64,000 nucleotides of DNA, taken from assembly GCF_900156805.1 (NCBI RefSeq), contig NZ_FTOQ01000014.1:1-64000 (forward strand), in the 5' to 3' direction. The DNA comes from Roseivivax lentus (GTDB lineage: Bacteria; Pseudomonadota; Alphaproteobacteria; Rhodobacterales; Rhodobacteraceae). Below are positions 41,685 to 52,497 of this stretch, one piece after another. Within the stretch, counting starts at the first letter, position 1. Every line of letters begins with the position of its first letter. The notes beneath the pieces are model-generated. The model did no database searches and had not been told where the DNA came from. It saw nothing but the letters and a program-made list of their open reading frames with translations. The position numbers were made by a program, and so were the translations under genes.

Positions 41685-41744
41685 TCCCGCCCTGCCCTGT
41701 CCACCGCCGCGCCGATCCGGGTGCGGCGACTAGGAGCCCTGCCG

Positions 41745-42884
41745 ATGACCAATCCGCTCGACCTGCCGTTCGACACCGAGGAGATGCTGGAGGGCCTGCG
41801 CCCCTGGATCGAGACCGAAAGTCCGACCTTCGATGCCGCCGCCGTGAACCGGATGATGGACCTCGTGCAGCACGAGATGGCCACGCTGGGCGCGCGGGTC
41901 GAGCGCATCCCGGGCCGCATGGGCCTCGGGGACAGCCTGCGCGCGACCATGCCGCATCCCCGCGCGGGCGAAGGCGGCATCCTGCTTCTCGGGCACATGG
42001 ACACCGTGCACCCGGTCGGCACGCTCGAGAAACTGCCCTTCCGGCGCGAGGGCGACATCTGTACCGGGCCGGGCCTGATGGACATGAAGGGCGGCAATTA
42101 CGTCTATCTCGACGCGCTGCGCAAATTGCTGGCCGCCGGGATCGACACGTCGCTGCCGGTGACCGTGCTGTTCACCCCCGACGAGGAGATCGGCACGCCC
42201 TCGACCCGCGCGCTGATAGAGGCGGAGGCGAAGCGACACCAGTTCATCCTCGTGCCCGAACCGGCCCGCCCCGATGGCGGCGCAGTCATCGGGCGCTACG
42301 CCATCGCGCGCTTCAACCTGCAAACCCGCGGCCGGCCCAGCCATGCGGGCTGGGCGCTGGCGGATGGCCGTTCCGCAATTGCCGAGATGGCCCGCCACGT
42401 CGCAATCATCGAAGGCATGACCACCGAGGATTGCACCTTTTCCGTCGGCGTTTTCCATGCCGGGCAGTGGGTCAACTGCGTCTCCAGCGTCTGCGATGCG
42501 GAGGTGCTGAGCATGGCCAAGACGCAGGAATTGCTCGACGCGGGCGTCGAGAAGATGCTCGCGCTCAACGATGACAGCGGCGACGTGGTGATGGAGGTTC
42601 GGCGCGGCGTCACCCGCCCGGTCTGGGAGCCCGACCAGCCGGGCACCATGGCGATGCTGGACCTGGCGAACGAGATCGCCGGAGAGATCGGCTTTCACAT
42701 GACGGGCCAATCCGCGGGCGGCGGATCGGACGGGAACTTCACCGGCTTTCTCGGCTTGCCGACGCTCGATTCCATCGGCGTGCGGGGCAAGGGCCTGCAC
42801 ACCCTGACCGAACATATCGAGGTCGACAGCCTCGTCGAACGCGCGCGGCTTGCGGCGGGGCTCTTCACCCGGCTCGGCACCTGA
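41745..42884 (+). CDS. M20-family peptidase (carboxypeptidase G2-like)
   Basis: This 379-residue enzyme belongs to the M20A/CPG2 group. Metal and catalytic residues appear in LLLGHMDTVHPVG, GPGLMDMKGGNY, FTPDEEIGTPSTRALIE (catalytic Glu pair) and a late HTLTEHIEVDSL. The substrates of relatives are C-terminal glutamyl amides and folate-type compounds. The ATG at 41745 follows GGAG by 7 bases. A 60-base gap separates it from the previous hydrolase, and its stop overlaps the next start (TGATG). Together with the gamma-glutamyltransferase, this favours a glutamyl-containing substrate. Confidence 0.9.
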   Translation: MTNPLDLPFDTEEMLEGLRPWIETESPTFDAAAVNRMMDLVQHEMATLGARVERIPGRMGLGDSLRATMPHPRAGEGGILLLGHMDTVHPVGTLEKLPFRREGDICTGPGLMDMKGGNYVYLDALRKLLAAGIDTSLPVTVLFTPDEEIGTPSTRALIEAEAKRHQFILVPEPARPDGGAVIGRYAIARFNLQTRGRPSHAGWALADGRSAIAEMARHVAIIEGMTTEDCTFSVGVFHAGQWVNCVSSVCDAEVLSMAKTQELLDAGVEKMLALNDDSGDVVMEVRRGVTRPVWEPDQPGTMAMLDLANEIAGEIGFHMTGQSAGGGSDGNFTGFLGLPTLDSIGVRGKGLHTLTEHIEVDSLVERARLAAGLFTRLGT

Positions 42885-44455
42885 TGTCGGACGCCCTGTC
42901 GCGCAGCCTCGAGATCACCAAACACGTGGTGGAGACCGACCGCGGTGTGGTCGCGGCGCAGCATCGGCAGGCGGCGGAGGCCGGGGCCGAGGTGCTGGCC
43001 GCCGGGGGCGACGCGGTCGATGCGGCGGTGGCCTGTTCCTTCGTATGCGGTGTGCTCGAGCCCTGGATGTCGGGGCCCGCGGGCGGCGGCGGCGCGATGC
43101 ACTGGCGCGCCGGCACCGGCACCGCCCATGCGCTGAATTTCGGCATGTCCGCACCTTCGGGCCTGCGCCTTGCCGATTTCCCGCTCTCGGGCGAGGGCGT
43201 CGCGGCCGATCTCTTTCCCTGGGACCGGGTGGTCGAGGATCGCAACGTGCAGGGCGCCCGCGCGGTCGCGGTGCCGGGGGTCGTGGCCGGGCTCGATGCG
43301 GCGCATGCGCGCTGGGGCCGCATGCCGTGGGCCGACCTGCTGCAGCCCGCGATCGCCGATGCCCGCCGCGGCATGGAGGTCGATTGGTACGCCGCGCTCA
43401 TCATCGCGAGTGCCGCGCGGGACCTGGCCCGGGACCCGGATGCGGCGGCGCAGTTCCTGCAGGACGGCCGCTTCCCGCGGTCCTTTTCCTGGACCGCGCA
43501 GGGCAATGACCGGATCGACCAGTCGCGGATGGCCGACAGCCTCGACATCCTCGCCCGCGACGGCGCGGCGGCGCTTCACGGCGGCGATCTGGGTGCGGCT
43601 CTGGCCGCGGATGTCGCGGCCAAGGGCGGCTATCTGAGCCGCGAGGACCTCGAAGCGGTCACGCCCCGGATCGAGGCCCCGCTTTCCGTGCCCTACCGCG
43701 CGGCGCGCTTCGAGGTAATGCCGGGTCTCACCGCCGGTCCGACCTTCGCCCATGCCATGGCGCGTCTGGCCGAGGCGCCCAGGGCCACGCTCGACGAGAT
43801 GCGGCCCGCCCATGCGCGCGCGCTGCTGTCGGCATACCGCGCGCGGCTCACCACGATGGGGCACGATGGCGAGGTCCATGCGGCCCCGGGATCGACCACG
43901 CATTTCTCGGTGGTGGACCGGCAGGGCAACATGGTCGCGCATACCCAGACGCTTCTGTCGATCTTCGGCGCGCGCGTGGTCTCGCCATCGACGGGCTTCC
44001 TGCTCAACAACGGCATCATGTGGTTCGACCCGGTGCAGGGTCGGGCCAATTCGCTGACCCCCGGCGCACCCTGCCTGATGAATATCTGCCCCGTGCTCGG
44101 CCAGGTGAACGGGGCGCGCGTCGCCTTGGGGGCCGCGGGCGGGCGCAAGATCGTCTCCGCCGTGGTGCAACTCGCGGCGTTTCTTGCCGATCACGACATG
44201 GATCTCGCGACGGCCTTCGCCACGCCACGGATCGACGTGTCGGGCGCCGACCGGATCGTCGCGGATGACGCACTGCCGGGTCCGGTGCGCGACGCCCTGC
44301 AGGCGGTGGCACCCACCTCCGTGGTGCGCCGGTCGATGCTGCCCTATCCCTTCGCCATCCCCTCGGGCGTCGCGACGCGGGAGGGTCGCCAGACCGGCGC
44401 GACCGAAATCATGGCGCCCTGGGCGGATGCCGTCACTGAGCCCGCCGCGCTCTAG
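42884..44455 (+). CDS. Gamma-glutamyltransferase family protein
   Basis: This 523-residue Ntn-hydrolase has the nucleophile Thr338 in STTHFSVVD (the self-cleavage site separating large and small subunits), with GGGGAMHW near the N-terminus and LTPGAPCLMNICP and ALGAAGGRKI downstream. There is no obvious signal peptide, so it is probably cytoplasmic, unlike the classical periplasmic Ggt. It transfers or hydrolyses gamma-glutamyl groups. Last gene of the uptake operon, followed by a terminator-like hairpin at 44544. Confidence 0.9.
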   Translation: MSDALSRSLEITKHVVETDRGVVAAQHRQAAEAGAEVLAAGGDAVDAAVACSFVCGVLEPWMSGPAGGGGAMHWRAGTGTAHALNFGMSAPSGLRLADFPLSGEGVAADLFPWDRVVEDRNVQGARAVAVPGVVAGLDAAHARWGRMPWADLLQPAIADARRGMEVDWYAALIIASAARDLARDPDAAAQFLQDGRFPRSFSWTAQGNDRIDQSRMADSLDILARDGAAALHGGDLGAALAADVAAKGGYLSREDLEAVTPRIEAPLSVPYRAARFEVMPGLTAGPTFAHAMARLAEAPRATLDEMRPAHARALLSAYRARLTTMGHDGEVHAAPGSTTHFSVVDRQGNMVAHTQTLLSIFGARVVSPSTGFLLNNGIMWFDPVQGRANSLTPGAPCLMNICPVLGQVNGARVALGAAGGRKIVSAVVQLAAFLADHDMDLATAFATPRIDVSGADRIVADDALPGPVRDALQAVAPTSVVRRSMLPYPFAIPSGVATREGRQTGATEIMAPWADAVTEPAAL

Positions 44456-44543
44456 GCACGCTTGGCGATGGCCGCATGGAGCGCCTTCGGCACACTCGTC
44501 ACGAAGCAATCCCCACTCCGAAGGCTAGAAATTAATCAAACCC

Positions 44544-44575
44544 GCGCGCCGTCCCCCGCCGGTCGCGCCTTTTTT
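44544..44575 (+). terminator. Intrinsic terminator after the gamma-glutamyltransferase operon
   Basis: GCGCGCCG (44544-44551) pairs with CGG-T-CGCGC (44560-44568, one bulged T), followed by C and six T (44570-44575). It separates the peptide-uptake operon from the guanidine module. Confidence 0.65.
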
Positions 44576-44610
44576 GTTGCGCGGGCCGCGGGCGAGCGGG
44601 TCAGCATGGG

Positions 44611-44722
44611 GCTGCAGGACGTTTAGGGTTCCGCCGCGCATCCGCGGGTCTGGTCCGAGAAACGTCACCTGACCGGCAAATTCCGGGCGGGCACACGGCG
44701 GGCCAAAATCCCGGGAGGCATA
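44611..44722 (+). ncRNA. Guanidine-I (ykkC class) riboswitch
   Basis: The conserved pieces appear in order: GACGTTTAGGGTTCCG (44618-44633), a hairpin CCGCG/CGCGG (44634-44638 with 44643-44647), CTGGTCCGAGA (44650-44660), AACGTC (44661-44666) closing a 6-base helix with GACGTT, then ACACGG (44693-44698), CAAAATCCCGGGAG (44704-44717). These match the known guanidine-I aptamer, which binds guanidinium and turns on guanidine-handling genes. The binding-protein gene begins 94 bases downstream. A second hairpin, GACCCGC 44735-44741 with GCGGGTC 44763-44769, lies between and could be part of the expression platform. No T-run follows it, so translational control or antitermination are both possible. 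Confidence 0.9.
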
Positions 44723-44815
44723 CTGCGCAGGTTTGACCCGCGCCCTCCTCCTTGTTCCGCCAGCGGGTCGGACCTCACCTCGAATGCGGGCGGGACGCTG
44801 ACAAAGGGTAAGTCC

Positions 44816-45883
44816 ATGAACAGAAGAACGCTGCTGTCAACGACGGTCATGTCTCTCGGTCTCCTTGCCGCGACGCAGGGTCCCGTCGCCGCGCAGGAAA
44901 AGACCGAATTCCGGCTGGCCTGGTCCATCTACGTGGGCTGGATGCCCTGGGGGTACCTCGAGGAATCGGGCATCATGGACAAGTGGGCCGAGAAATACGG
45001 CATCACCGTCGATATCGTGCAGATCAACGACTACGTCGAATCGATCAACCAATACACGGCGGGCGCTTTCGATGGCGTCTCCGCGACCAACATGGACACG
45101 CTGTCGATCCCGGCCGGCGGCGGCGTCGACACCACGGCGCTTATCATCGGGGATTATTCCAACGGCAACGACGCGGTCATCGCCAAGGGCGACATGACCC
45201 TCGCGGATCTGGCGGGCACCCGCGTGAACCTCGTCGAGCTGTCGGTGTCGCATTACCTGCTGGCCCGCGCGCTCGATTCCGTGGGCCTGGCCGAGCGGGA
45301 CCTCGACGGCGTCGTCAATACCTCGGACGCGGACATGATCGCTGCCTTCGCGACCGACGATGTCAGCACGGTGGTGACCTGGAACCCGCTCGTGTCGGAG
45401 ATTCTGTCCTCGAACCCCGATGCGACAAACCTCTTCGACAGCTCCGCCATCCCGGGCGAGATCCTCGACCTGATGGTGGTCAACACCGAAACGCTGGCGG
45501 CCAATCCCGATTTCGGCAAGGCCGTCGTCGGCGCCTGGTACGAGGTCATGGGCCTGATGGCCGCGGGCGACGAAGAGGCATTGACCGCCATGGCCGAGGC
45601 CTCGGGCACCGATCTTGCGGGCTACAAGGCGCAGCTCGACGCGACCGAGATGTTCTTCGATCCCGCCGAGGCCGTCGCGCAGGCCGCGAGCCCCGATCTG
45701 CCCGCAACCATGGTCAGCGTCGCCGAATTCCTGTTCGACAAGGGCATCCTCGGCGTGGATGCGCCGTCGGCGGATTTCGTCGGCATCGAATACCCGGACG
45801 GCACGGTGACCGGGAACGCGGACAACGTCACGTTCCGGTTCGATGCCAGCTACATGCAGATGGCCGCGGACGGCGCGCTTTGA
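44816..45883 (+). CDS. Guanidine-associated ABC binding protein (NitT/TauT type)
   Basis: This 355-residue protein has a Sec signal peptide (basic start, hydrophobic core, cut near VAAQ at about 27) and a SsuA/TauA-like fold: FRLAWSIYVGWMPWGYL, GAFDGVSATNMDTL and NLVELSVSHYLLARAL. The Trp/Tyr-rich start (W-S-I-Y-V-G-W-M-P-W) is a feature of the urea-carboxylase-associated/guanidine binding proteins and would suit a flat cation. It is the first gene behind the guanidine-I riboswitch, which strongly suggests guanidine as ligand. AAAGGG lies upstream of the ATG at 44816. A stem-loop at 45901 separates it from the permease. Confidence 0.88.
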   Translation: MNRRTLLSTTVMSLGLLAATQGPVAAQEKTEFRLAWSIYVGWMPWGYLEESGIMDKWAEKYGITVDIVQINDYVESINQYTAGAFDGVSATNMDTLSIPAGGGVDTTALIIGDYSNGNDAVIAKGDMTLADLAGTRVNLVELSVSHYLLARALDSVGLAERDLDGVVNTSDADMIAAFATDDVSTVVTWNPLVSEILSSNPDATNLFDSSAIPGEILDLMVVNTETLAANPDFGKAVVGAWYEVMGLMAAGDEEALTAMAEASGTDLAGYKAQLDATEMFFDPAEAVAQAASPDLPATMVSVAEFLFDKGILGVDAPSADFVGIEYPDGTVTGNADNVTFRFDASYMQMAADGAL

Positions 45884-45900
45884 GCTGACGAAATGCCTCA

Positions 45901-45920
45901 CCCGGCCGGAGGCGGCCGGG
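45901..45920 (+). terminator. Intercistronic stem-loop between binding protein and permease
   Basis: A perfect 8-base stem, CCCGGCCG (45901-45908) with CGGCCGGG (45913-45920) and a GAGG loop. There is no T-run. Such loops after binding-protein genes usually protect the upstream mRNA or reduce readthrough so that more binding protein than permease is made. Confidence 0.6.
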
Positions 45921-45950
45921 CATCCTCCACCCCCGCCCGAGACATCGCGC

Positions 45951-46766
45951 ATGCGCCTGATCAACCGCCGCCCCACCTCGCCGCCGCTTGCGGTCGTGCT
46001 GGCCGCCCTGCCCTTCGTCGCCGTGGCCGTGGCCTATGCCATCGGCTCCGACATCCGGCTGGCCGCCAATCCGCAGGACAAGCTGCTGCCGGCACCCGCG
46101 ACCATCCTCGAGACCGCGATCCGGCTCTTCACCGAGGGCGACCGGCGGTCGGGCGACATCCTGCTCTGGCACGACACCTGGGCGAGCCTCCGGCGGCTCT
46201 TCTTCGGCGTGGGGATCGGCGCGATCATCTCGCTCGTCGCGGGCGTTCTCATCGGCATGCTGCCTTACGCGCGGCGCACCTTCTCGGATTTCGTGGCGGT
46301 GCTGTCGATGGTGCCGCCGCTGGCGATGCTGCCGATCCTGTTCATCGTCTTCGGGCTCGGCGAGACCTCGAAGATCGTGCTGATCGTCGTGGGAATCACG
46401 CCGTTCCTGATCCGCGACCTGAGCCAGCGCGTCCTCGACATCCCGCACGAGGAGATCGTGAAGGCGCAGACGCTGGGCGCCTCGAGCCTCGTGATCGCGC
46501 TGCGCGTGGTGCTGCCGCAGATCCTGCCGCGGCTCATCGCGGCGGTGCGGCTGTCGCTGGGATCAGCCTGGCTGTTCCTGATCGCCGCCGAAGCGGTCGC
46601 GGCGGATGTGGGGCTCGGCTATCGCATCTTCCTTGTCCGCCGCTACCTCGCGATGGACATCATCCTGACCTACGTCATCTGGATCACGCTTCTGGCCTTC
46701 CTGATCGACTGGGCGCTAAAGGTCGCCTCGCGCCGCGCCTTTCCCTGGCTGGGGGCGGGCCTGTGA
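45951..46766 (+). CDS. ABC transporter permease (NitT/TauT type)
   Basis: This 271-residue inner-membrane protein has about six hydrophobic spans. The EAA coupling loop appears as EEIVKAQTLGASSLVIALRVVLPQILPRLIAAV, giving the family's key E-A/G positions, and the end RYLAMDIILTYVIWITLLAFLIDW is typical of SsuC/TauC-like permeases. The ATG at 45951 is chosen because an upstream extension overlaps the binding-protein stop and is not hydrophobic. The stop overlaps the GTG of the ATPase gene. It transports the riboswitch ligand, most likely guanidine. Confidence 0.9.
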   Translation: MRLINRRPTSPPLAVVLAALPFVAVAVAYAIGSDIRLAANPQDKLLPAPATILETAIRLFTEGDRRSGDILLWHDTWASLRRLFFGVGIGAIISLVAGVLIGMLPYARRTFSDFVAVLSMVPPLAMLPILFIVFGLGETSKIVLIVVGITPFLIRDLSQRVLDIPHEEIVKAQTLGASSLVIALRVVLPQILPRLIAAVRLSLGSAWLFLIAAEAVAADVGLGYRIFLVRRYLAMDIILTYVIWITLLAFLIDWALKVASRRAFPWLGAGL

Positions 46767-47569
46767 GTTTCGTGTCGGTCACAGATGTCTGGCAATCCTA
46801 TGACGGACGGTCGATCATCGAGCGGGTCAATCTCGACGTGGCCGAGGGCGAATTCGTGTCGATCGTCGGCGCGTCGGGCTGCGGCAAGTCGACCTTCCTG
46901 CGGCTGCTCTTGGCCGATGAGCGCCCGACCCGCGGCACGATCCGTATCGATGGCGGCGCTCCGGCGGTGGAGCCCGGGCGCGAACGTGGCGTCGTCTTCC
47001 AGCGCTATTCGGTCTTCCCGCATATGAGCGTGCGCGACAACATCGTGGCCGCCGAAAGCTTCGCCACGGGGCTCGGCCGCTTCTTCGGAGCGAAGCTGCG
47101 CGCGGCCCGCGCACGGGCGGATGGCACGCTCGACCGGATTGGCCTGGCCCATGTGGCGGGCAATTATCCCGCGACGCTCTCGGGCGGGATGCAGCAGCGG
47201 CTGGCCATCGGGCAGGCCCTGACCGCCCGCCCGCGTATCCTGCTGCTGGACGAGCCCTTCGGCGCGCTCGATCCCGGAACGCGGATCGCGATGCACGATT
47301 TCCTGACCGAGCTTCGGGCCGAGACCGCGATGACCGTCTTCATGGTCACCCATGACCTCTCCGAGGGTTTCAAGCTGGGCGACCGGGTGCTGGTCTTCGA
47401 CAAGCCGCGCTGGGACCCCGACTACCCCGAGAAGTTCGGCGCCACGATCACCTACGATTTCGACGCCCGGGACGGGGGCATCCCCTATCAGCGCATCCTC
47501 GAGAAGGCCCCCGGCCTCGCCCCAGACATCGTGTCCGACATCGCCCCTGACATCGCGGGCCCGGCCTAG
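46763..47569 (+). CDS. ABC transporter ATPase (NitT/TauT type)
   Basis: This 268-residue ATPase has Walker [10 protein letters not shown] (about 37-45), the Q-loop [14 protein letters not shown], signature [15 protein letters not shown], Walker [14 protein letters not shown] and switch HDLSEG. The GTG start overlaps the permease stop (GTGA). The C-terminal tail (about 205-268) is longer than usual, with [16 protein letters not shown], as in the urea-carboxylase-associated transporters. About 110 bases then lead to the guanidine hydrolase gene. Confidence 0.9.
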
Positions 47570-47678
47570 CCCGGCCCGTTCCAACGCCCATGCGCGCCGC
47601 CGGACCCCGCGCATGGGAAACAGCCAAGGTCCGGAAGCCGCACGCCCGCAGACGGGCGCACCCGAGAGGGAGACCGAC

Positions 47679-48938
47679 ATGCTCTTCGAGCCCATGACCC
47701 GCCAAGGCAGGTCCCACCACCCCGACGCCGCCCGCGCACGCCACAGGGCGCGCGACCGGCGCTTTCATCATCCCGACCTCACCAAGCTCGGCGGCTGGCG
47801 CGCCATGCAGAAAGAGGGCGAATTGCCCGAGGGCCGCTGGGACGAGGAGCGCCGCTGGGCGCTCCGCATGGGCCTGACCGGCGCCGACAGCATCGACGAC
47901 AAGTCGATCCCGACCTTCGCGCGGGGCGAGCTGCCGCATTACGCGGGCATCAACACCTTCCTCAAGGCGCCCTATACCGAGGATGTCCTCGAGGTGGCCA
48001 ATTACGACGCGACCGTGCTCGGCATCCCCTTCGACGGCGGCACCACCTACCGGCCCGGCACCCGCTTCGGCCCGCAGGGCGTGCGCAAGATCTCGGCGCT
48101 TTATACCCCCTACAACTACGAGATCGGCGTCGATCTGCGCGAACAGATGACGCTTTGCGATGCGGGCGACGTGTTCACCATCCCCGCCAATATCGAGAAG
48201 AGCTTCGATCAGATCAGCCGCGCGGTGAGCCATGTGTTCTCGTCGGGCTCGCTGCCGATCATGATCGGGGGCGATCATTCCATCGGCTTTCCCTGCGTGC
48301 GCGGCATCGCCGAATGCACCTCGAAGAAGATCGGCATCGTGCATTTCGACCGCCATGCGGACATCCAGGAAAAGGACCTGGACGAGCGGATGCACACCAC
48401 GCCGTGGTTCCATGCCACCAATATGCCGAACGTGCCCGCGAAGAACCTCGTGCAGGTTGGCATCGGCGGCTGGCAGGTGCCGCGCGAGGCGGTGAAGGTC
48501 GCCCGCGAGCGGCAGACCAACATCATCACCATGTCCGACATGGAGGCGATGGGCATCGACAAGACCGCCGAGATGGCGCTCGAGATGGCCTGGGATGGGG
48601 TCGACATGGTCTACATGTCCTTCGACATCGACAGCATCGATTGCGGCTTCGTGCCGGGCACCGGCTGGCCCGAACCGGGCGGCTTCCTGCCGCGCGAGGC
48701 GCTGGCGCTGGCCTCGAAGGTCGCGGCCGAGGGCATCTGCGGGATGGAGCTGGTGGAGGTCTCGCCGCCCTACGACACCTCCGACATCACCGCGCTGATG
48801 GGCACGCGGGTGATCGTGGACGTGCTGGGCGCGATGGTCTCGAACGGCACGCTGGGCAAGCACAAGCAGCATATCGACAAGCCCGTCTCGATCCCCCATG
48901 GCGAGTTCGAGGGCAAGAGGTGGTCCAATGCCACATGA
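47679..48938 (+). CDS. gdmH: Guanidine hydrolase (GdmH-type arginase-family enzyme)
   Basis: This 419-residue member of the arginase/agmatinase family has metal ligands at His200 (GGDHSIG), Asp224-x-His226-x-Asp228 (HFDRHADIQ) and Asp316-x-Asp318 (SFDIDSIDCG). The DxHxD motif is flanked by the GdmH-specific D-R-H and QEKDLDERMHTTPWFHATN, and GTGWPEPGGFLPREAL also matches the nickel-dependent guanidine hydrolase branch as in cyanobacteria. The reaction is guanidine to urea plus ammonia. The ~70-residue N-terminal extension is also typical. The ATG at 47679 has GAGGGAG upstream. Position after the riboswitch and transporter confirms the role. The end overlaps the His-rich gene by 11 bases. The nickel chaperones HypA/HypB-like GhaA/GhaB known from other systems are not adjacent. 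Confidence 0.92.
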   Translation: MLFEPMTRQGRSHHPDAARARHRARDRRFHHPDLTKLGGWRAMQKEGELPEGRWDEERRWALRMGLTGADSIDDKSIPTFARGELPHYAGINTFLKAPYTEDVLEVANYDATVLGIPFDGGTTYRPGTRFGPQGVRKISALYTPYNYEIGVDLREQMTLCDAGDVFTIPANIEKSFDQISRAVSHVFSSGSLPIMIGGDHSIGFPCVRGIAECTSKKIGIVHFDRHADIQEKDLDERMHTTPWFHATNMPNVPAKNLVQVGIGGWQVPREAVKVARERQTNIITMSDMEAMGIDKTAEMALEMAWDGVDMVYMSFDIDSIDCGFVPGTGWPEPGGFLPREALALASKVAAEGICGMELVEVSPPYDTSDITALMGTRVIVDVLGAMVSNGTLGKHKQHIDKPVSIPHGEFEGKRWSNAT

Positions 48939-49395
48939 TCACGGGCCCCACGGGCATCATCCCCATCATCACCACGACCATGACCACGCGCACGGCCCCG
49001 GTCACAACCATGCCGATGCGGAGCACCTGCACAGCCACATGCACCACCATGATGCGGCGGCGGACCTGCAGGTGCTGGCCACGCAATTCATCGCGGGCTT
49101 CCTGCAGGCCGATGACAAGACGAGCTATCTCAAGCTCGCGGGCGTGCCGTTCGAACGGGCCTCGAAGGACGGCGCCAAGGCGCTGAAACTCGTCGACGTG
49201 GAACTGACGACCGACTGGCAGGTGGGCACCGCCTCCCCGAGCTTCGGCTCACGCGAATTGTCCTACCTGCCCTTCCCCGGAGAGATGGTGCGGGAACGCA
49301 CCAACATGTCCCTGATCTACGTGTCGCTCGACGAGAAATCCGTCCTCGACATCCGCGACTTTCTCAACACCCGCAAACAGGAGATCGAAAGATGA
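48928..49395 (+). CDS. Histidine-rich protein, candidate metal chaperone for GdmH
   Basis: This 155-residue protein has 20 His among residues 3-41, arranged as HxH, HH and HHHH clusters with Asp/Gly/Pro. This is a flexible metal-binding tail like those of nickel-storage and nickel-insertion proteins. Residues ~45-155 form a soluble domain (DLQVLATQFIAGFLQADDKTSYLKLAGVPF, key part 46-70; DVELTTDWQVGTASPSFGSREL) of a family I do not recognise. The ATG at 48928 lies within the end of gdmH, so translation is coupled. Its place where HypA/HypB-type chaperones sit in other GdmH systems, plus the tail, argue for nickel loading of GdmH. This is inference. Confidence 0.88.
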   Translation: MPHDHGPHGHHPHHHHDHDHAHGPGHNHADAEHLHSHMHHHDAAADLQVLATQFIAGFLQADDKTSYLKLAGVPFERASKDGAKALKLVDVELTTDWQVGTASPSFGSRELSYLPFPGEMVRERTNMSLIYVSLDEKSVLDIRDFLNTRKQEIER

Positions 49396-49550
49396 AGACA
49401 CTGCCCCTCGCCGCCCTCGCGGCGCTGACCGCCCTGCCCGCCGCGGCCCATACCGAGGCCACGCTGCATGTCCACCATGCCGAAACCGGGTCGATGATAC
49501 TCGCGGGCGCGATGGTGGTCGTGGCGCTGGCCCTGACGCTTCGGCGCTGA
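49392..49550 (+). CDS. 52-residue membrane peptide, last gene of the guanidine module
   Basis: A small gene overlapping the stop of the His-rich gene (ATGA). The product has an N-terminal Sec-like segment (MKTLPLAALAALTALPAAAH), a short periplasmic stretch with three His, Glu and Asp-like metal-binding character (HTEATLHVHHAETG), and a C-terminal membrane helix (about 34-50) ending in RR. If the leader is cleaved the mature peptide is about 33 residues with a single span. The His cluster suggests a link to metal handling as for the preceding gene. A bidirectional terminator follows at 49558. Confidence 0.72.
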   Translation: MKTLPLAALAALTALPAAAHTEATLHVHHAETGSMILAGAMVVVALALTLRR

Positions 49551-49557
49551 ACGGAAA

Positions 49558-49590
49558 CGGGCGGCCCCGGATCCCTCCGAAGGCCGCCCG
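49558..49590. terminator. Bidirectional terminator between convergent operons
   Basis: A perfect 9-base stem, CGGGCGGCC (49558-49566) with GGCCGCCCG (49582-49590) and a 15-base loop, sits 7 bases after the membrane-peptide stop and 33 bases before the stop of the minus-strand ATPase gene. There is no T-run, but the position fits termination of both operons. Confidence 0.6.
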
Positions 49591-49623
49591 CGCAGGCGAC
49601 GCAGTCAAAGCCGCAGGCCCGCC

Positions 49624-50721
<1,098 letters not shown>

Positions 50722-50726
50722 CGGAC

Positions 50727-51632
50727 TTATCCTTTCACGGAACCGGCGGTCAGACCGCGGATGAAATACTTTCCGGCAACCACGTAGACGAACAGCGTCG
50801 GCAGGGCCGCGATGATCGCGGCGGCCATGTCGACGTTGTATTCCTTCACGCCGGTGGTCGAATTGACGATGTTGTTGAGCGCGACCGTCACAGGCTGCGT
50901 GCCCGCCTGGCTGAAGGAGACGCCGAACAGGAAATCGTTCCAGATCTGGGTGAACTGCCAGATGACGGTGACGACGATGATCGGCAGCGACAGCGGCAGG
51001 AAGATCGACCAGAAGATGCGGAAGAACCCCGCGCCATCGACCTTGGCGGCCTTGGTCAGCTCGTCCGGGATCGACACGTAGTAATTGCGGAAGAACAGCG
51101 TGGTGAAGCCCAGGCCGTAGATCACGTGCACGAAGACGAGCCCCGGAATGGTCCCGGCGATGCCCATCACCCCCAACATCCGCGCCATCGGCAGCAGCAC
51201 CACCTGGAACGGGATGAAACAGCCAAAGAGCATCAGCGCGAAGAAGATGTTGGCCCCCTTGAAGCGCCATTGCGCGACGACATAGCCGTTCAGCGCACCG
51301 AGCAGGGTCGAGATCAGAACGCCCGGAATGGCGATCAGCACGGAGTTCCAGAAGAACGGGCGCACGCCTTCGCACTGGATGCCCGTGCAGGCCTCGGACC
51401 AGGCGCTGCGCCACGCGTCGAAGGTGACATCGCGCGGCAGGGACATCAGATCGCCGGTGCGGATCTCGTCGAGCGATTTCAGCGACGTGGTGATCATCAC
51501 GAAAAGCGGCATCAGGTAGAACAGCGCGAAGATGCACAGCGCGAGATAGAGGATGATGCGCAGCGCCAGCTTGGTCGTCTGGCTCTGGCTGCGGGCCATC
51601 GAGGGACCGCCGCTGGAAGAGATATCAGCCAT
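50727..51632 (-). CDS. Sugar ABC transporter permease (MalG-like)
   Basis: This 301-residue inner-membrane permease of the CUT1 family has about six spans. The EAA loop appears in PDELTKAAKVDGAGFFRIFWSIFLPLSLP (the conserved EAA-like E-L-x-K-A-A-x-x-D-G). It opens with TTKLALRIILYLALCIFALFYLMPL after a charged N-tail. It overlaps the preceding permease gene by 8 bases and lies 5 bases before the ATPase gene. It forms the sugar channel. Confidence 0.92.
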   Translation of the reverse strand: MADISSSGGPSMARSQSQTTKLALRIILYLALCIFALFYLMPLFVMITTSLKSLDEIRTGDLMSLPRDVTFDAWRSAWSEACTGIQCEGVRPFFWNSVLIAIPGVLISTLLGALNGYVVAQWRFKGANIFFALMLFGCFIPFQVVLLPMARMLGVMGIAGTIPGLVFVHVIYGLGFTTLFFRNYYVSIPDELTKAAKVDGAGFFRIFWSIFLPLSLPIIVVTVIWQFTQIWNDFLFGVSFSQAGTQPVTVALNNIVNSTTGVKEYNVDMAAAIIAALPTLFVYVVAGKYFIRGLTAGSVKG

Positions 51633-52497
51633 CTTTGGTCCTCAATTCCGAATAAAGGTAGGGAACGACGATCGCGAAGACGACGAGCATCATGACCATG
51701 GCGGAGCTGGCCGCCTGGCCGATATCGCCGCGCGAGAAGGCCATCGCGTACATGTAGGTTGCGGGCAGATCGGTGGCGTAGCCCGGGCCCCCGCCGGTCA
51801 GCGCGATCACGAGGTCGAAGGACTTGATCGCGAGATGCGCCAGCACGATGAACGCGCTGAGAAAGATCGGCGCCATCGAGGGGATGATGATCGCGGTGTA
51901 GACGCGCCAATGCGGGATGCCGTCGACCTGCGCGGCCTTGATGATCTCGCCATCGACGGAGCGCAGACCCGCGAGGAAAAGCGCCATCACGAAGCCGGAG
52001 CTTTGCCATATCGCGGCGATCACGATGGTGTAGATGGCCATGTCGGGATCGACCAGCCAGTCGAAGCGGAACTCCTCGAAGCCCCAGCCTCGGACCATCG
52101 CCTCGAGGCCGAGCCCCGGATTGAGGATCCATTTCCACGCGGTGCCGGTGACGATCATCGACAGCGCCATCGGGTAGAGGTAGATCGTGCGGATCGCGCC
52201 CTCGGTGCGGATCTTCTGATCGAGCAGGATCGCCAGCAGCAATCCCAGAACCATCGCGATGATGATGAAGAGCGATCCGAAGATGAACAGGTTGACCATC
52301 GCCGTCTCGAAGCGCGGCGAGGCGGCCAGACGTTCATACTGGATGAAGCTGTCGAGCTCGTAGCGCGGCATCAGGCGCGAGCGCGTCAGGGACACCCAGG
52401 CCGTCCAGCCGATGAAGCCGTAGACGAAGATCATGACCGCGATGAACGACGGTGCCAGAACGATCTTCGGCATGTTGTCTTGAAGCCATTTCGACAT
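51625..52497 (-). CDS. Sugar ABC transporter permease (MalF-like)
   Basis: This 290-residue permease has about six spans, opening IVLAPSFIAVMIFVYGFIGWTAWVSLT. The EAA loop is in DGEIIKAAQVDGIPHWRVYTAIIIPSMAP. The RFDWLVDP stretch and the whole layout match the GtsB-type glucose permease. A strong stem-loop (52523-52548) separates it from the binding-protein gene upstream, the usual arrangement for high binding-protein expression. Confidence 0.92.
   Translation of the reverse strand: MSKWLQDNMPKIVLAPSFIAVMIFVYGFIGWTAWVSLTRSRLMPRYELDSFIQYERLAASPRFETAMVNLFIFGSLFIIIAMVLGLLLAILLDQKIRTEGAIRTIYLYPMALSMIVTGTAWKWILNPGLGLEAMVRGWGFEEFRFDWLVDPDMAIYTIVIAAIWQSSGFVMALFLAGLRSVDGEIIKAAQVDGIPHWRVYTAIIIPSMAPIFLSAFIVLAHLAIKSFDLVIALTGGGPGYATDLPATYMYAMAFSRGDIGQAASSAMVMMLVVFAIVVPYLYSELRTKDG

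Follow-up and report, generated by a model that had tools for sequence, protein, structure and literature searches.

A histidine-rich protein encoded beside alphaproteobacterial guanidinases is a candidate for nickel delivery

How does a guanidinase obtain its nickel when no HypA-like gene is seen in its operon? The question is raised by a stretch of DNA of 64,000 nucleotides from Roseivivax lentus (contig NZ_FTOQ01000014.1, positions 1 to 64,000; the window in what follows), in which a guanidine-I riboswitch aptamer is followed by genes for an ABC transporter, a guanidinase of the GdmH type and two small proteins. According to the accessible text of a study on the guanidinase of Nitrospira inopinata (PMC11410670), nickel loading of that enzyme is unclear and no chaperone was found. 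The guanidine module of the window is of an already known kind; the new part is the product of the first small gene, here called P5, which we consider the probable nickel-delivery protein of GdmH in this lineage, as an alternative to other chaperones. The two genes are located as follows.

Positions 47679-48938, plus strand: GdmH-type guanidinase, 419 amino acids (assigned by PF00491, matches in the PDB and key residues).
Positions 48928-49395, plus strand: P5, a histidine-rich protein of 155 amino acids from an undescribed family, candidate nickel-delivery protein (assigned by co-occurrence and adjacency with GdmH).

The case for a partnership between P5 and GdmH starts from their joint distribution. 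In a sample of 292 genomes from the window's order, in which GdmH presence was scored at E values up to 1e-100, GdmH was found in 28 genomes and P5 in 28, with both in 27, side by side. The GdmH without P5 is that of genome G291, where a contig end cuts the gene. Outside the pairs, genome G012 has a P5 match of 35 residues inside another reading frame (L091 6260-6790), with neither a GdmH at 1e-100 nor a guanidine-I aptamer; it is probably a decayed remnant, the trace of a lost operon. Among 297 genomes of a second order, GdmH occurs in 31 and P5 in 30, in the same genomes except G786, and all five P5 carriers in a sample of 289 genomes across the phylum are GdmH carriers. Fisher tests of the co-occurrence yield p values of 8e-36 (292 genomes) and 2e-40 (297 genomes), which overstate the evidence because the genomes are related. 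Judging from the relatives Limimaricola variabilis and Sinorhizobium fredii NGR234, the window's order and the second order are probably Rhodobacterales and Hyphomicrobiales, respectively. For comparisons of loci, a second set of 30 was assembled, in which 28 come from GdmH genomes of the second order (all 31 but G724, G851 and G866) and two from the phylum sample.

P5 lies on the same strand as GdmH and 3' of it, and in the window's order the two genes overlap at many loci. In 28 loci of the second set, the gap between the end of the match to GdmH and P5 spans -1 to 481 bases, and it does not exceed 20 bases in 16 of them. The two proteins also diverge together, with a correlation of r = 0.89 between P5 and GdmH distances over 44 of 54 loci. 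Such close pairing, overlap of reading frames and correlated divergence might also mean that P5 serves the alphaproteobacterial guanidinase as a structural or regulatory subunit, comparable to the beta subunit of metformin hydrolase, and heteromeric ureohydrolases do exist (accessible part of PMC11399263). We regard a subunit role as improbable, since P5 is not a ureohydrolase homologue, since its histidine-rich arm fits metal handling better, and since the N. inopinata guanidinase is described in the text at hand as a homohexamer resembling the Synechocystis enzyme (PMC11410670).

Two reduced loci of the second set connect P5 with the enzyme rather than with uptake, because P5 is retained with GdmH in both. 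At L233, GdmH comes 155 bases after the aptamer, and none of the operon's transporter genes was found. At L230, where the GdmH match starts only at residue 111, neither transporter nor aptamer was found. The genome of the second order with a GdmH-like gene and no P5, G786, has an enzyme (L231 5677-7008, minus strand) that is guanidinase-like, only 57% identical, with a serine at the position of the specificity tryptophan and a histidine-rich stretch near its N-terminus. No transporter match was found beside it and no aptamer. Given these features, it may act on another guanidino compound. A HupE gene stands beside this enzyme, and a further neighbor resembles a LysR-type regulator by eye.

The partner enzyme falls among the guanidinases by its sequence and by its residues. 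GdmH of the window matches the arginase family PF00491 with 260 bits, and in the PDB it scores 554 bits against the Synechocystis guanidinase (7esr/7oi1) and 540 bits against that of N. inopinata (9fek), with the next ureohydrolase at 175 bits. The accessible text on the N. inopinata enzyme lists ten residues for metal binding and guanidine hydrolysis (PMC11410670), and all ten are identical in the window's protein by alignment: the metal ligands H200, D224, H226, D228, D316 and D318, the specificity residues T123 and W330, and H239 and E360. The grouping and the residues thus support the GdmH-type hydrolase that the sequence-only reading of this DNA had proposed, and we predict from them that the enzyme hydrolyses guanidine in a nickel-dependent manner. 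The window's order has the ten residues intact at 26 of 27 loci (in the remaining one, a contig end cuts the gene), the second set at 29 of 30, and a group of named guanidinase loci at all 80; these are the best 80 of 567 confirmed ones when ordered by how similar they are to the N. inopinata enzyme. Another residue pattern recognized GdmH in 48 of 58 loci; the counts given here come from the ten-residue comparison.

The window's own genome encodes urease alpha elsewhere, so that the urea formed is probably usable. In the urease region there is also a reading frame with a long histidine-rich tail, called UreE-like from its position and its tail (L092, contig C42 of the genome, 7522-8136, minus strand). 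With one query, HupE was not found in the 18-kb stretch around this urease. Four more arginase-family genes accompany GdmH in the genome, on contigs C19, C22 and C31.

P5 itself was compared in an alignment of 54 members, from which L083 and L207 were excluded because their starts are uncertain; the start at 48928 was chosen after the MPHD start of the relatives, with another in-frame ATG at 48898. The members contain 8 to 28 histidines each (median 17.5), with an N-terminal histidine-rich arm of varying length and a conserved C-terminal domain that holds all seven invariant positions. The H and the N of a GHN motif each occur in 53 of 54 members. The sub-type to which the window's P5 belongs additionally carries an HLHSH motif; a second one shares about 30% identity with the window protein. 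P5 has no convincing family match in Pfam, NCBIfam or the PDB: scans of the 54 members against Pfam and NCBIfam returned stray weak matches only (at most 2 of 54 per family), and a profile of the 54 members reached only E values of 0.46 and 0.92 at best against the PDB. One of the stray hits, to a nickel/cobalt efflux transporter family of NCBIfam (two members, E 0.013), is probably an artefact of histidine runs and was set aside. Neither P5 nor any of the 54 members matches PF01155, the HypA/GhaA family, at E 0.1. Relatives in viral contigs were looked for as well, and none was confirmed among 44 candidate stretches. In the literature searched on guanidinase, guanidine riboswitches and nickel chaperones, we found no description of P5, though the original paper (Funck et al., 2022, Nature) may mention it.

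The wider distribution of HypA fits an alternative route of nickel delivery. No match to HypA was found in the window's own genome. Of 62 genomes, namely the 61 with a GdmH-like gene and the one with the remnant, 50 lack a match (51 when those below the cut-off are disregarded). Where HypA is present, it sits on a different contig or at a distance of at least about 42 kb from the operon. The sequence-only reading had noted two small accessory genes at the end of the operon. Their presence stands, and the close partnership of the histidine-rich one with guanidinase, its candidacy for nickel delivery and the absence of a HypA match are additions to it.

Several observations weigh against nickel delivery by P5. 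The comparison genomes are related, and the co-occurrence counts are therefore not independent events. The negative result for HypA in the window's own genome comes from a search that covered neither HypB nor other GTPases. Single-sequence AlphaFold models of P5 gave no usable structure, with a pLDDT of 46 for the whole protein and 43 for residues 43-155, and are for this reason unfit for a fold search. The histidine-rich arm is variable, and some members have only 8 histidines in all. Immediately 3' of P5, a HupE/UreJ-like nickel permease is encoded in 9 of the second set's 29 P5 loci, which speaks for a nickel role of P5, but six of the nine come from one genus (g132) and only four genera are involved, so that the link amounts to fewer events than nine; the other 20 loci have no full-length HupE. 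Membership in the HupE family PF04955 was checked for two proteins, from L232 (a P5 locus) and from L231 (without P5). S. fredii NGR234 is among the bacteria with the permease 3' of P5; its pNGR234b has, besides P5 and HupE, a leader resembling the aptamer, the transporter and GdmH. The variable length of the arm and the permease in 9 of 29 loci also agree with P5 being a nickel store or buffer, which, on induction of the operon, would protect the cell or hold nickel in reserve and would not transfer metal directly to GdmH. Such a role seems unlikely to us, as the conserved domain and the lack of P5 in GdmH-free genomes, except for the one remnant, suggest a specific partner.

A further objection comes from other guanidinases. 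No P5 or HupE match was found in the flanks (up to 6 kb, on contigs that are in part short) of the 80 named loci, which are mostly from Nitrospira and Actinobacteria, include no cyanobacteria, and were searched with a P5 profile built from alphaproteobacteria only. A guanidinase as such does not, therefore, need P5. It could follow that the module is an ordinary one in which P5 is dispensable or unrelated and GdmH is loaded by another factor, for instance the urease accessory set or free nickel. The N. inopinata guanidinase, for which the accessible text names no chaperone (PMC11410670), and the histidine-tailed UreE-like frame of the window's own genome could be cited for the same view. We nevertheless hold it to be quite improbable, because 22 of 113 genera (one of them through the remnant only) and 22 of 122 genera sampled have retained P5 next to an intact guanidinase, which argues for selection. 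Nickel delivery by P5 to the guanidinases of this lineage is the reading that we prefer.

The second small gene may belong to the same pathway.

Positions 49392-49550, plus strand: P6, a peptide of 52 amino acids with a signal-like N-terminus, a histidine motif and one hydrophobic segment (from the translation).

Among relatives of the window's order, 13 of 25 have a P6-like peptide, with the histidine motif and the hydrophobic segment, after P5; in the second set, 1 of 28 loci does. Such a peptide is also seen in L. variabilis. P6 does not match PF04955 (HupE/UreJ), and we do not claim it as a true HupE relative; a longer relative at L213 scored 13.8 bits against the HupE N-terminus in a single-target phmmer comparison, and a weak match (E 1e-3) was seen at L214. 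DUF6732 (PF20506) was likewise considered and rejected, with no match for P6 itself and weak matches, all below the cut-off (best E 0.01), for 5 of 10 relatives and one further relative. There is perhaps an even chance that P5 represents a new class of nickel metallochaperones without detectable relation to Pfam or NCBIfam families, which evolved with the alphaproteobacterial guanidinases, and that P6 and its longer relatives are a minimal periplasmic nickel-capture peptide that replaces HupE.

The remainder of the operon consists of the leader and the transporter.

Positions 44612-44719, plus strand: guanidine-I riboswitch aptamer (covariance-model match to Rfam RF00442).
Positions 44720-44815, plus strand: leader, possible expression platform (from a leader alignment; partly conserved among relatives).
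Positions 44816-45883, plus strand: periplasmic substrate-binding protein, putative guanidine binder (TIGR03427; NMT1-like).
Positions 45951-46766, plus strand: ABC permease (PF00528).
Positions 46763-47569, plus strand: ABC ATPase with a GTG start (PF00005).

A covariance-model check had been named beforehand for the riboswitch proposed upstream of the operon, and it returned 81 bits (gathering score 63, E 7.5e-13) over model positions 1-107, the full length, as the single match found across the 4.44-Mb assembly. RF00442 scores over the cut-off in 59 of the 62 genomes searched and was not found over it in G012 (the remnant genome), G689 and G786; adjacency of aptamer and GdmH cannot be judged in a few draft genomes, because the two are on different contigs. 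These counts are those of Rfam, as a sequence pattern recovered the riboswitch in 5 of 28 loci in strict form and in 27 of 28 in relaxed form. The fold of 44612-44830 has a z value of -1.98, and no terminator-like site was found on the plus strand in 44400-49700. From its sequence, the aptamer is predicted to bind guanidine and to switch expression.

The six genes 3' of the aptamer are all on the plus strand, with short gaps or overlaps between neighbors, and the overlaps at 46763/46766, 48928/48938 and 49392/49395 are consistent with a single operon. The substrate-binding protein scores 511 bits against TIGR03427 (curated cut-off 334), named "putative urea ABC transporter substrate-binding protein". 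Binding protein, permease, ATPase and GdmH occur together in every one of the 26 complete relatives from the window's order, in L090, which is truncated, and in the second set at 26 of 30 loci; the exceptions are L217 (where the contig ends), L230, L231 and L233. Gene order and families are therefore as first described, a transporter, then the hydrolase, then two small genes on one strand, with coordinates correct within a few bases; together with the aptamer in 59 of 62 genomes, the co-location makes the link between transporter and guanidine somewhat stronger than had been noted, uptake itself being inferred. In all, this confirms a real module for guanidine sensing, import and breakdown. 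Its surroundings comprise two adjoining genes at 41721-44455 (plus strand), for an M20-family peptidase and a gamma-glutamyltranspeptidase, which end about 156 bases before the aptamer, and, at 49624-52497 (minus strand), the ATPase and two permeases of a MalK-type ABC transporter, which faces the operon from downstream.

Together, the aptamer, the gene order, the residues, the co-occurrence and the missing HypA match suggest a model whose steps of binding, transport and transfer we infer. Guanidine would bind the leader aptamer and switch the operon on. The TIGR03427-type importer would bring in guanidine, GdmH would convert it to urea and ammonium, and the urease encoded elsewhere in the genome would complete the breakdown. 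Nickel for GdmH would be handed over by P5 and not by chaperones of the HypA/HypB type: the histidine-rich N-terminal arm would capture the metal, and the conserved domain of about 110 residues would dock on GdmH. The supply of nickel to P5 may be aided by P6 in this bacterium and by a HupE/UreJ permease in certain other lineages.

If so, P5 is a concrete candidate for nickel loading in two alphaproteobacterial orders, in which GdmH occurs in about one tenth of the genomes sampled (28 of 292 and 31 of 297). It could raise the activity of recombinant guanidinases, and a gene that RefSeq labels "hypothetical protein" in L. variabilis would gain a function.

How does the operon compare with known systems? 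With guanidine carboxylase operons it shares the binding-protein family TIGR03427, which is defined by a link to urea carboxylase, an enzyme that we take to be now understood as guanidine carboxylase. To our knowledge, those operons contain other degradation enzymes and no nickel enzyme. Another known system is the operon of Synechocystis PCC 6803, whose accessory proteins GhaA and GhaB are HypA/HypB-like. According to the accessible parts of the reviews that cover it (PMC12186494, PMC12930504), it combines a guanidine-I riboswitch, an ABC importer, GdmH (Sll1077) and the nickel accessory genes for GhaA and GhaB. The window has the same set of riboswitch, importer, GdmH and small accessory genes in one operon; GhaA and GhaB, however, are not seen here, P5 with its missing HypA match takes their place in the operon, and P6 is extra. 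The N. inopinata locus likewise has a guanidine-I riboswitch, and all ten key residues recur in its guanidinase; it differs in having an APC permease instead of an ABC importer, and no nickel chaperone is reported in the text at hand (PMC11410670); P5 was not found in the Nitrospira loci examined. In the operons of the metformin/dimethylguanidine hydrolases, which are nickel ureohydrolases, hypA and hypB precede the enzyme genes and hupE follows them; activation required HypA/HypB (accessible part of PMC11399263). These operons differ in their two-subunit enzyme, in the substrate and in the use of HypA/HypB where the window's operon has P5, and resemble it in placing a nickel ureohydrolase beside a candidate nickel-delivery gene, with HupE present in some P5 loci as well.

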